This document shows, piece after piece, positions 19,254 to 51,091 of a stretch of DNA of 64,000 nt. The position numbers and the translations under genes are program-made. Below the pieces are notes generated by a model. It was not told where the DNA came from. It was given only the letters and a program-made list of their open reading frames with translations, and made no database searches. Within the stretch, counting starts at the first letter, position 1; each line of letters begins with the position of its first letter. The DNA is from Vulcanimicrobiota bacterium (GTDB lineage Bacteria > Vulcanimicrobiota > Vulcanimicrobiia > Vulcanimicrobiales > Vulcanimicrobiaceae), in contig PMSI01000001.1 in NCBI GenBank assembly GCA_003168375.1, positions 1,054,001 to 1,118,000 of the forward strand, given 5' to 3'.

Positions 19254-20371
<1,118 letters not shown>

Positions 20372-47051: not shown

Positions 47052-47300
47052 ATGGATGAACGCAACATCACGGTCGCCCGCGACAACGGCGGATCGCTCG
47101 CAGCCTTCAGCTTGGTCGCAGTCATCGTGGTCGTCGCCTTGATCGCGCTCTTCGTGTGGCAGCCGTGGAACGCGACCAGCACGTCGCGCAGCATCACAAA
47201 CACGACGACCCAGCAGTCGAGCGGCGCGAACGGTACGAACGGTACGAACGGCGGCGCATCGACGACTACTACTACTACGACCGGCGGAGGGACCCACTGA
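47052..47300 (+). CDS. Small single-span membrane protein with Thr/Gly/Asn tail
   Basis: 82 residues. GGGGGAAAG precedes the ATG. One transmembrane helix (about residues 16-40), then a low-complexity tail of Ser/Thr, NGTNGTNG and a run of Thr residues. No family recognised. Its TGA overlaps the next ATG (TGATG), so the two small genes are co-translated. Possibly a stress-related envelope protein. Confidence 0.7.
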   Translation: MDERNITVARDNGGSLAAFSLVAVIVVVALIALFVWQPWNATSTSRSITNTTTQQSSGANGTNGTNGGASTTTTTTTGGGTH

Positions 47301-47539
47301 TGGAACGTGACAACGACGCGAAACGCGATTCGATCGAGACGCTCAAGAGCGATACGCACGACGCGCTGGACGAAGCGAAGCATCGCGTGCTGGCCGGCGG
47401 CGAGAAGGTGAAGCGCGCGGTGGAGGGCGATCAGATGCCGCTCGGCGACCGCATCGCCTCGCACGTCAAGGAGACCGGCCACGAGTTCAAGGCCGAGGTC
47501 GACAAGACGAAGCGCGACCTGCGCGATAAGCCGGTCTGA
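47300..47539 (+). CDS. Small charged helical protein (CsbD/YtxH-tail-like)
   Basis: 79 residues, highly charged, with regular SIETLKSDTHDALDEAKHRV helix and a second helix HVKETGHEFKAEVDKTKRDL. No membrane segment. The pattern resembles CsbD or late-embryogenesis-like stress proteins but no definite family is assigned. It lies 17 bp before the NHEJ ligase gene, suggesting stress co-expression with DNA repair. Confidence 0.7.
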   Translation: MERDNDAKRDSIETLKSDTHDALDEAKHRVLAGGEKVKRAVEGDQMPLGDRIASHVKETGHEFKAEVDKTKRDLRDKPV

Positions 47540-47556
47540 TCCGCGATCGGAGAGCT

Positions 47557-49206
47557 CTGAAGAAAACGACCGACCGGCTCGCCGAGTACGTTCGCAAACG
47601 CGACTTCTCGGCGACGCCGGAACCAAAAGGCGAAAAACGCAAGCGGGCTTCTTCCAAGAAGCTCCGCTTCGTCGTGCAAGAGCATCGCGCGACGCGGCTG
47701 CACTGGGATTTCCGGCTCGAAGTGAACGGTGTGATGCCGTCGTGGGCGATCACCAAGGGGCCGACGATGATCGCCGGCGAGAAGCGGCTCGCGATGAACA
47801 CCGAGGATCACCCGCTCGACTACCGCACCTTCGAAGGCGTGATCCCCGACGGCAACTACGGTGCGGGCGAAGTGATCGTGTGGGACGAGGGCTTCTACTC
47901 GCTGTACGAAGGCGACGACCCCGCCGAGCAGATCGCGAAGGGCAAGCTCAAGATCGTCATCGCCGGCCACAAGCTCAAAGGGCTGTTCACGCTGGTGAAG
48001 ATGAAGCCGCGCGAGGGCGAGCGTGGCGAGCCGTGGCTGTTCTTCAAGGACCACGACGAGTACGAAGACCCGAACTGGACGATCGAAGCGAACGCCAAGA
48101 GCGTGAAGAGCGGGATGACGCTCGCGCAGCTGCAGCAGAAACGCAAGGACGCGCCGATCTGGAAAAGCAACCGCGCCTCGTCTGCCGACGGCACCGCGGT
48201 CAAGCGCGGGGTGCGTGCGAAGGCGGCGCACGCGGATCCGATCCCGCGCGACCCCAAGCCGATGCTGACGACCTTGGTCGAGGCTCCGTTCGACGACGAG
48301 CGCTGGCTGTTCGAGCTCAAGTGGGACGGCTACCGGGCGATCGCGGTCGTCGAGAAGGACAAGGTCACGCTGACCTCGCGCAACGCCAAGGACTTGCTGC
48401 ACCAGTTTCCCGAGATGAACGACCTCGCGCGCGCGTTCCTCTCGATCCCCGTCGTCGTCGATGGCGAGCTGTGCGTGCTCGATGCGCAGGGGAAGCCGGA
48501 CTTTCAGGCGCTGCAATCGCGCGACAAACCCGCCGTGCGCGGGGCGGCGCGCCGCAAACCATCGCCGGTGACGTTCGTCGTTTTCGACCTGCTCTACGCC
48601 GACGGGCGCGATCTTCGCGAGCGGCCGCTCGAAGAGCGCAAGCGGCTGCTGGAGTCGATCGTCGTCCCCGATCGCGGCGTGCTGTACTCCAAGCACGTGA
48701 TCGGGACCGGCAAGCAGCTCTTCGCGCTGGCCGAGGAGCGCGGGCTCGAAGGGATCGTCGGAAAGGTTCGCACCTCGCCGTATCGATCGATCCGCTCGCG
48801 CGAGTGGGTGAAGATCAAGGCGAAGCAGCGGCAGGAGCTCGTCATCGGCGGCTTGACCGAACCGCGCGGCAGCCGCGCCGAGTTCGGCGCGCTACTGGTG
48901 GGCTATTACGAGGGCGGCGACTTGCACTACGCGGGCCACGTCGGGACCGGATTCGACGCCAAGCTGCTGCGCAGCCTGAGCGCGAAGCTCAAGCCGCTCG
49001 AGCGCAAGACCTCGCCGTTCGTCGAGACCCCCAAGACGAACACGCCGGCGCACTGGGTGAAGCCGCAGCTCGTCGCCGAGATCGCGTTCGCCGAGTGGAC
49101 CCGCGAGGGGATCCTGCGCCAGCCGGTCTTCATCGGGCTGCGGATCGACAAAGAGGCGAAGACCGTCGTGCGCGAGCGCGCGCAGCACCCAGACCCGGAT
49201 GCATAG
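47557..49206 (+). CDS. ligD: LigD phosphoesterase-ligase (ATP-dependent DNA ligase), CTG start
   Basis: About 549 residues. An N-terminal 3'-phosphoesterase domain (LAEYVRKRDFSATPEP; HRATRLHWDFRLEV; TEDHPLDYRTFEGVIPDGNY) is followed by an ATP-dependent ligase domain with active-site lysine in FELKWDGYRAIA (about residue 255) and an OB-fold end. The frame opens after TAA at 47527 and contains no ATG, GTG or TTG before 47674, which lies inside the phosphoesterase domain. CTG at 47557, after CGGAGAG, is the best start. It is followed directly by the separate polymerase gene and Ku. Confidence 0.93.
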   Translation: MKKTTDRLAEYVRKRDFSATPEPKGEKRKRASSKKLRFVVQEHRATRLHWDFRLEVNGVMPSWAITKGPTMIAGEKRLAMNTEDHPLDYRTFEGVIPDGNYGAGEVIVWDEGFYSLYEGDDPAEQIAKGKLKIVIAGHKLKGLFTLVKMKPREGERGEPWLFFKDHDEYEDPNWTIEANAKSVKSGMTLAQLQQKRKDAPIWKSNRASSADGTAVKRGVRAKAAHADPIPRDPKPMLTTLVEAPFDDERWLFELKWDGYRAIAVVEKDKVTLTSRNAKDLLHQFPEMNDLARAFLSIPVVVDGELCVLDAQGKPDFQALQSRDKPAVRGAARRKPSPVTFVVFDLLYADGRDLRERPLEERKRLLESIVVPDRGVLYSKHVIGTGKQLFALAEERGLEGIVGKVRTSPYRSIRSREWVKIKAKQRQELVIGGLTEPRGSRAEFGALLVGYYEGGDLHYAGHVGTGFDAKLLRSLSAKLKPLERKTSPFVETPKTNTPAHWVKPQLVAEIAFAEWTREGILRQPVFIGLRIDKEAKTVVRERAQHPDPDA

Positions 49207-50172
49207 ATGCCGCCGAAAAAAACCGAGATCGTCGCCACGATCGGCGGCCGCGAACTCAAGCTGACGAACCAGGACAAGATCCTGTTCCCCGGCGACGGCT
49301 ACACCAAGGGCGATCTCGTGCGCTACTACCAAGCCGTCGCGCCGATGATCCTGCCGTACCTGCGCGGGAACCCGCTGACGATGGAGCGCTTTCCGGACGG
49401 GATCGGCGTCCCGCGCGGGATCTGGGAGAAGCAGATGCCGCGCTATACGCCGGAGTGGGTAACGCGGGTGACGATCCAGCCCTCGACCGGCGAACCGCGG
49501 AACGTCACCTACGTGGTCGTCGACGACGCCGCGTCGCTGGCGTGGGTGGCGAACCTGGCCGCGATCACGCTGCACATCTGGTATTCGCACGTGCCGACGA
49601 TCGACGTCCCCGACGTGATCCTGTTCGATCTCGACCCCGGCGAGCGGTGTCCGCTGGCGCGGCTTGCGAAGGTCGCGCTGGGCTTCCGCGACGAGCTCGC
49701 CGGCATCGGGATCCGCGCCTACGTGAAGACGACCGGCGGGATGGGACTGCACGTGATCCTGCCGCTGGAACCGCACTACGACTACGAGATCGCCAAGGGC
49801 GTCTCGGAGCTGGTCGCCCGCCGGGTCCACGCGGTGCTGCCGAAGGACACGACGCTGGAGCGGACGATCTCACGGCGGCCCAAGGACCTGGTGTACCTGG
49901 ATTGGGTGCAAGTAGGCAAGGGGAAAACCTACGTCGCGCCGTTCACCGTGCGGGCTCGGGACGGGGCGCCGGTGTCGATGCCGCTGGCATGGCGGGAGGT
50001 CGAGGCGATGCGCCGCAAGCGCGCCCCCGAGACCACCGCCGAGATGCGGCGATGGACGATCGCGAACGTGCCGAAGCTCGTGGCGAAGACCGGTGACCCG
50101 TGGCGGCGCGAGGGTTGGAAGCCCCAATCGCTCGAAAGCGCCCTATCAAAGGCTCGCTCGCTCTGGGAGTAG
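49207..50172 (+). CDS. LigD polymerase domain protein (primase-polymerase)
   Basis: 321 residues, the NHEJ polymerase as a separate protein. KLTNQDKILFPGDGYTKGDL and NPLTMERFPDGI are typical of the domain, the catalytic metal pair is in VILFDLDPG, and KTTGGMGLHVILPL follows. It fills or extends ends with preference for ribonucleotides. It starts at the base after the ligase gene stop and ends 10 bp before ku, so the three act as one double-strand-break repair operon. Confidence 0.95.
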   Translation: MPPKKTEIVATIGGRELKLTNQDKILFPGDGYTKGDLVRYYQAVAPMILPYLRGNPLTMERFPDGIGVPRGIWEKQMPRYTPEWVTRVTIQPSTGEPRNVTYVVVDDAASLAWVANLAAITLHIWYSHVPTIDVPDVILFDLDPGERCPLARLAKVALGFRDELAGIGIRAYVKTTGGMGLHVILPLEPHYDYEIAKGVSELVARRVHAVLPKDTTLERTISRRPKDLVYLDWVQVGKGKTYVAPFTVRARDGAPVSMPLAWREVEAMRRKRAPETTAEMRRWTIANVPKLVAKTGDPWRREGWKPQSLESALSKARSLWE

Positions 50173-50182
50173 ACCGAAAATC

Positions 50183-51091
50183 ATGGCACACGCGATTTGG
50201 TCCGGCGCGATCAACTTCGGACTCGTCACGATCCCGGTGAAGCTCTACACGGCCGTTCGGACGAACGACCTGCGCTTCAACTTCCTGCACAAGTCGGACG
50301 AAGGTCGCATCTACAACGAGCGGCACTGCAGCGTCTGCGGCGAGAAGGTCGAGTACGCCGACCTGGTGCGCGGCTACGAGTACGAGAAGGGCCATTACGT
50401 CACGATCACCGACGACGACCTCAAGGGCGTGCGTCCGGAAGCGACGCAGTCGGTGCAAATCGTCGAGTTCGTCGAGCTCGACCAGATCAACCCGATGTAC
50501 TTCGACACGCCGTACTATCTGGAGCCCGAGAAGAAGGGCCGCCACGCCTACGCGCTGCTGCGCGATGCGCTGATGGACTCCGGCCGCGTCGCGATCGCGC
50601 GCGTCGTGATCCGCTCGCGCGAGCACATCGCCGCCGTGAAGCCGAACGGCGAGGCGCTGGTCCTCGAGCTGATGCACTTCGCCGACGAGCTGGTCGAACA
50701 GAAAGCCTTCGACTTTCCGGCGCTCAACGAAAAGGTCGCCGACGCCGAGAAGAAGATCGCGAAGCTGCTCATCGACACGATGAGCGTCGATGAGTTCAAG
50801 CCCGACGAGTTCCACGACAAGTACAAGGAAGACGTCCTGGCGATGATCGAGGCGCGCGCGGCCGGTGAGGAAATCGAGAAACCGGAAGTCCACCGTCCGG
50901 CGGCGACCAACGTCGTCAACCTGATGGACGTCCTGCAGCGTTCGCTCGAACAGTCGAAGGCGCGCCGCAAGAAGGGCGGCGAGGCGATCGAAGAGGACGA
51001 CGCCGAGGCCGCGAAGCCCGCCAAGCGCAAGACGGCGGCGAAGAAAACGGCCGCCGCTGCAAAGCCGAAGCGCAAGAAGAGCGCGGCATGA
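50183..51091 (+). CDS. ku: DNA end-binding protein Ku
   Basis: 302 residues. MAHAIWSGAINFGLVTIPVK is the standard Ku start, and the core continues with HCSVCGEKVEYADLVRGYEY and the ring region. The last 50 residues are rich in Lys and Ala (KKTAAAAKPKRKK), an extended basic tail used in other bacteria for non-end DNA binding and ligase recruitment. ATG 50183 lies 10 bases after the polymerase stop. The stop overlaps the next start by four bases. Confidence 0.96.
   Translation: MAHAIWSGAINFGLVTIPVKLYTAVRTNDLRFNFLHKSDEGRIYNERHCSVCGEKVEYADLVRGYEYEKGHYVTITDDDLKGVRPEATQSVQIVEFVELDQINPMYFDTPYYLEPEKKGRHAYALLRDALMDSGRVAIARVVIRSREHIAAVKPNGEALVLELMHFADELVEQKAFDFPALNEKVADAEKKIAKLLIDTMSVDEFKPDEFHDKYKEDVLAMIEARAAGEEIEKPEVHRPAATNVVNLMDVLQRSLEQSKARRKKGGEAIEEDDAEAAKPAKRKTAAKKTAAAAKPKRKKSAA

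Follow-up and report, generated by a model that had tools for sequence, protein, structure and literature searches.

A conserved CTG codon as the putative ligD start in a genus of the Vulcanimicrobiaceae, and further candidate near-cognate starts in the family

The ligD locus and its reading frame

The window, that is, the whole stretch of 64,000 nucleotides analysed, carries on its forward strand a ligD gene (47557..49206, +) for a combined 3'-phosphoesterase and ATP-dependent DNA ligase (PF13298, PF01068, PF04679, TIGR02777, TIGR02779), 549 residues long when read from CTG and closed by a TAG codon at 49204. Profile searches matched the product to TIGR02777, the 3'-phosphoesterase model (204.8 bits; cut-off 144), to PF13298 (133.1; cut-off 31.1) and to TIGR02779, the model of NHEJ-type ATP-dependent ligases (324 bits; cut-off 227.75), and an alignment with PDB 2lj6, a LigD phosphoesterase domain which we take to be that of Pseudomonas aeruginosa, paired residue 5 of the chain with residue 5 of the query as numbered from the codon after CTG. 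The frame is a genuine PE-ligase LigD. Directly downstream lie a LigD primase-polymerase gene (49207..50172, +; PF21686) and a Ku gene (50183..51091, +; PF02735), each with an ATG start. The resemblance to the known LigD 3'-phosphoesterase-ligases (TIGR02777, PDB 2lj6) extends over the domains, the LAEY-RKRDF-TPEP N-terminal block and the LigD-Pol and Ku neighbours, whereas the polymerase domain is here a separate gene and the start codon appears to be CTG. Ahead of ligD, the region 47052-47539 holds two short ORFs without any Pfam family over cut-off, and the nearer of these, of 79 aa (47300..47539, +), ends at a TGA that precedes the CTG by 17 nt.

The ligD frame is closed upstream by an in-frame TAA (47527..47529, +), and direct reading agreed with the preliminary description that no ATG, GTG or TTG occurs from there to a GTG (47674..47676, +) situated inside the motif FVVQEH. 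Ahead of any canonical start lies a conserved N-terminal block, LAEYVRKRDFSATPEP (47578..47625, +), recognised by its codon-position differences and by the 2lj6 alignment. The putative initiation codon, CTG (47557..47559, +), is located between the TAA and this block; other in-frame near-cognates ahead of the block are CTG 47536, ATC 47539, AAG 47560 and ACG 47566. The same description had placed CTG 47557 directly after CGGAGAG (47548-47554), and the codon is indeed present, but two bases (CT) separate it from that motif. The GGAG within the motif (47549..47552, +), possibly a weak Shine-Dalgarno sequence, thereby ends 4 nt upstream of CTG and 7 nt upstream of AAG 47560. At ligD's own codon frequency, the probability of encountering no canonical codon in 48 codons was approximately 0.06; the absence of such codons in one genome alone is weak evidence, and the case against chance would have to be a comparative one.

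The ligD start in related genomes

A ligD gene was present in all 11 genomes of the genus that were searched, and in 10 of them a CTG stands 6-8 codons ahead of LAEY with no ATG, GTG or TTG between the in-frame stop and the block. The exception is G001, in which the CTG is missing and a GTG occurs in frame, 29 codons ahead of RDF. In the CTG-bearing genomes the in-frame stops (TAA, TAG, TGA) are found 3-25 codons upstream of the CTG, and all 30 ungapped positions upstream of that codon vary among the 10. Pairwise differences within the 16-codon block across the 11 genomes numbered 10/26/209 by codon position and, since the block is thus conserved in the manner of coding sequence and corresponds to the N-terminus of the family, translation must traverse it and consequently begin ahead of it, downstream of the stop. 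The only near-cognate in that interval common to the 10 CTG-bearing genomes is the counterpart of CTG 47557, which in G006 is also the sole near-cognate codon between stop and LAEY. The original proposal that ligD starts at CTG is supported by this distribution at the level of sequence, and we infer that initiation occurs at the CTG itself.

Initiation at a different non-canonical codon nearby, for example AAG 47560 or ACG 47566, is unlikely. Although the 7 nt between GGAG and AAG 47560 are nearer to the spacing recorded for mreB (below), and AAG directly follows the CTG in eight of the 10 genomes, G006 has AAA and G008 has AGC at that position, whereas the CTG is invariant. GGAG itself precedes the CTG in only four of the 10 (spacing 4, 4, 4 and 8 nt), so that a Shine-Dalgarno sequence lends the CTG of ligD little support.

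More improbable still is a shorter LigD begun at GTG 47674, a codon identical in all 11 genomes and situated such that the Pfam LigD_N match, which starts at protein residue 41, lies just past it; against this, the block upstream varies almost exclusively at third positions, as translated sequence does, and belongs to the known N-terminus of the LigD family. It is possible that this GTG serves as an additional, internal start for a short form of LigD. That ribosomes enter the ligD frame from the gene ahead of it, through a frameshift or by reading through a stop, gains some plausibility from the proximity of the 79-aa ORF in the window but was rejected as highly improbable because neither the gene upstream of ligD nor the in-frame stop codon and its distance is constant among the genomes, and the upstream DNA is unconserved. 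Loss of a canonical start through a sequencing or assembly error in 47530-47674, a reservation attached to the original claim, can be dismissed: the genome of the window is in 7 contigs, but the identical CTG occurs in 10 genus genomes, each representing its own species, and also in seven named public metagenome-assembled records.

The start codons of ligD in relatives, whose survey had been recommended in the preliminary description, were then very differently distributed beyond the genus. Other genera of the family contributed 73 loci, 66 of which retain the ligD block and seven of which do not, and a usable ATG, GTG or TTG was present in 65 of the 66 block-bearing loci. In two of the 66 the frame runs open to the end of the sequence retrieved. 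The script's own tally of 66/66 counted an ATG internal to the block at one locus (L019, in G058); as this is its only ATG, the locus was taken as lacking a canonical start, and it seems to use CTG. Among 80 loci of named genomes, the seven without a canonical codon were all members of the genus, and each of the other 73 had one. Relatives with an ATG at the corresponding site, which had been named as a potential objection, do exist, but only outside the genus, where ATG or GTG is normal. The near-universality of canonical starts there indicates that the CTG is a derived and retained ligD start, and the objection does not cancel it; most simply, the CTG would have been fixed a single time, early in the history of the genus.

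Taken with the results for other genes, these comparisons make it probable that ligD is translated from CTG 47557 by means of an ordinary initiator tRNA, as one case of a family-wide near-cognate habit. The CTG would be read as formyl-methionine by that tRNA, having replaced, around the origin of the genus, the ATG or GTG seen in other members of the family, and been retained thereafter; the family would likewise start some of its conserved genes at the near-cognates AUC, AUU, AUA and CUG, with Shine-Dalgarno pairing, where present, presumably assisting initiation.

Putative near-cognate starts at other genes and the initiation machinery

The preliminary description had coupled ligD with mreB as a second conserved gene with a weak start, and comparison with relatives bore this out. 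The mreB gene of the window (19373..20371, +; TIGR00904 over cut-off) has no ATG, GTG or TTG between a TAG at 19265 and the conserved GIDLGTAN, and its start is placed at ATC 19373, 8 nt downstream of a GGAG Shine-Dalgarno sequence (19361..19364, +); residue 2 of the protein aligned to position 4 of the TIGR00904 profile. The start column is ATC in all 10 genus orthologues, each with GGAG 7-8 nt upstream; the eleventh genome (G010), which yielded only less similar mreB matches (best 70%), falls outside the 10. Six of these 10 genes are devoid of canonical codons from the stop to the start column, and in the remaining four the nearest lies further upstream in frame (11, 11, 15 and 67 codons) at places that are not shared. 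Elsewhere in the family usage is mixed, the site being TTG, CTG, ATG, GTG or ATC; a tally of this column across 30 family loci gave ATC 12 times, TTG 10, CTG four, ATG two and GTG two. In the mreB of G073 only GTC lies between the stop and the ATC.

Further genes with candidate near-cognate starts, each represented by two or three genomes, were found by comparing syntenic blocks and then inspecting codons and profiles. Within the genus, rpsA starts with ATT or ATC in three genomes, pth with ATC in two, and a D-aminoacylase-like amidohydrolase probably with CTG in three; in G001, ATC stands at the start of both mreB and rpsA. In genus g33 of the same family the corresponding starts, in two genomes each, are ATA for smc, ATT for recF, ATC or ATT for mreC and ATC for a HAD phosphatase. 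Profile matches begin at or close to the proposed N-terminus for smc (residue 2 to position 1), recF (1 to 1) and the HAD gene (5 to 5); that for rpsA begins at residue 22 or later, and its start codon is for this reason less certain. The infC start is ATA, preceded by GGAG, in all 10 genus genomes in which it was found (L116-L125). The sequence patterns of mreB, rpsA, pth, smc, recF and mreC support the earlier suggestion that the lineage may tolerate or use weak initiation codons. A secreted-looking protein, G000_230 (G000 C4:1222358-1224886, +), seems to start beside an upstream stop and then runs for some 60 codons with no canonical one among them; an ACG or AAG start is possible, and the gene was kept out of the list.

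The gene list rests on this codon and profile inspection rather than on a genome-scale count, and was curated by one reader from flagged pairs (17/115, 18/86 and 36/160), most of the remainder of which seem to reflect canonical starts or upstream genes that overlap. The automatic count itself, which recorded coding-like stretches before the first canonical codon, returned 6/115 and 4/86 pairs for two 400-kb blocks of the genus, 3/160 for g33 and 10/208 for an outside control, consisting mostly of sphingomonads (68 loci, L138-L205, 66 of which gave kept ORFs), and so did not separate the lineage from that control; it also missed ligD, mreB, recF, pth and the HAD gene. A post hoc restriction to proteins of at least 200 aa with stretches of at least 15 codons left 2 and 2 hits in the genus blocks, 2 in g33 and 0 in the control, the two in the second genus block being judged spurious frames.

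Two frames of another kind were also noticed. One of these (L214, G000 C4:1170932-1171180, +) starts GSCTSCC and is preceded by an in-frame TGA in both G000 and G002; it looks like a UGSC-motif selenoprotein, with TGA presumably read as selenocysteine. The other, a formate-dehydrogenase-like frame of genus g33 (L270, G080 C5:95536-98100, -), begins HSSTVPSLG immediately downstream of an in-frame TGA in each of the two genomes, a probable selenocysteine site.

The components that select start codons appeared ordinary. A search of the window's own genome for the initiator-type anticodon-arm pattern with any NAT anticodon returned 11 places, of which only GGGCTCATAACCC was tRNA-like; its locus was called as tRNA-Met(cat), and an altered initiator tRNA was rejected on that account, the sole initiator-type tRNA that the pattern found in this genome having the anticodon CAU and a GGG/CCC anticodon stem. 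The 16S rRNA retains both an intact anti-Shine-Dalgarno CCTCC and an intact GGAATCG, the latter taken to be the region around positions 1338-1339. IF3 was found in 10 of the 11 genus genomes, and that of the window's own genome aligned full length to PDB IF3; an altered IF3 was likewise rejected, the protein being ordinary at the level of the whole alignment. No altered initiation machinery was thus seen in the initiator tRNA, the anti-Shine-Dalgarno, the 16S 1338-1339 region or the IF3 alignment, and with the machinery ordinary the simplest mechanism would be the use of ordinary fMet-tRNA on near-cognate codons. A separate observation on the 16S rRNA concerns locus L349, where CTAGTAAACGC is found in place of what we take to be the usual sequence, CTAGTAATCGC, and the facing strand seems altered to match.

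Comparison with known systems and significance

In bacteria, near-cognate starts are familiar only as scattered exceptions (infC, pcnB), and most annotation tools permit only ATG, GTG and TTG. Automatic annotation in the phylum probably truncates the N-termini of MreB, S1, SMC, RecF and LigD.

CUG accounts for 0.024% of annotated bacterial starts (PMC11497404, PMC9845219) and yields 0.86% of the output of AUG (PMC11497404), while across 36 genome groups 61,358 ancestral AUG starts gave rise to 2 CUG and 1 AUU (PMC5622118). A CUG conserved across a genus lies well outside figures of that order. The annotated bacterial CUG-start genes resemble ligD in having a CUG start without a canonical alternative; the known cases are rare, however, whereas here one CUG has been kept through nearly a whole genus. 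The AUU, AUC and AUA starts of infC (IF3) are similar in being conserved near-cognates, accompanied by a Shine-Dalgarno sequence, on a housekeeping gene, and PMC9845219 has among its references the autocontrol of E. coli infC through AUU; infC is, however, a single self-regulated gene, whereas the genes concerned here (ligD, mreB, rpsA, pth, smc, recF and mreC) have no known reason for IF3 autocontrol. Chloroplast non-AUG starts, for which PMC9845219 describes retention across related genomes and a proposed regulatory layer, share that retention but belong to an organelle and to other genes. The literature searched, with partial coverage of subscription sources, yielded no report of non-canonical starts in Candidatus Eremiobacterota (WPS-2), the lineage of soil bacteria to which the genus belongs. 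Our guess would be that the CTG and ATC starts keep the expression of LigD or MreB low.

A broader reading, which we put forward tentatively and consider somewhat less probable than its converse, is that the family has an extended set of initiation codons, in which AUC, AUU, AUA and CUG are regular, selected starts for a small share of genes. If so, the set would include the usually essential rpsA, mreB and smc, with the mreB start moving freely among TTG, CTG and ATC, and would imply either that the ribosome checks start codons less strictly than it does in model bacteria or that these codons mark out a group of genes sensitive to how much IF3 is present. A genus-wide CUG together with AUC, AUU and AUA starts on several housekeeping genes would make the choice of start codon an evolvable, lineage-specific trait, and the strictness of ribosomal start-codon checking would become testable in a natural system.
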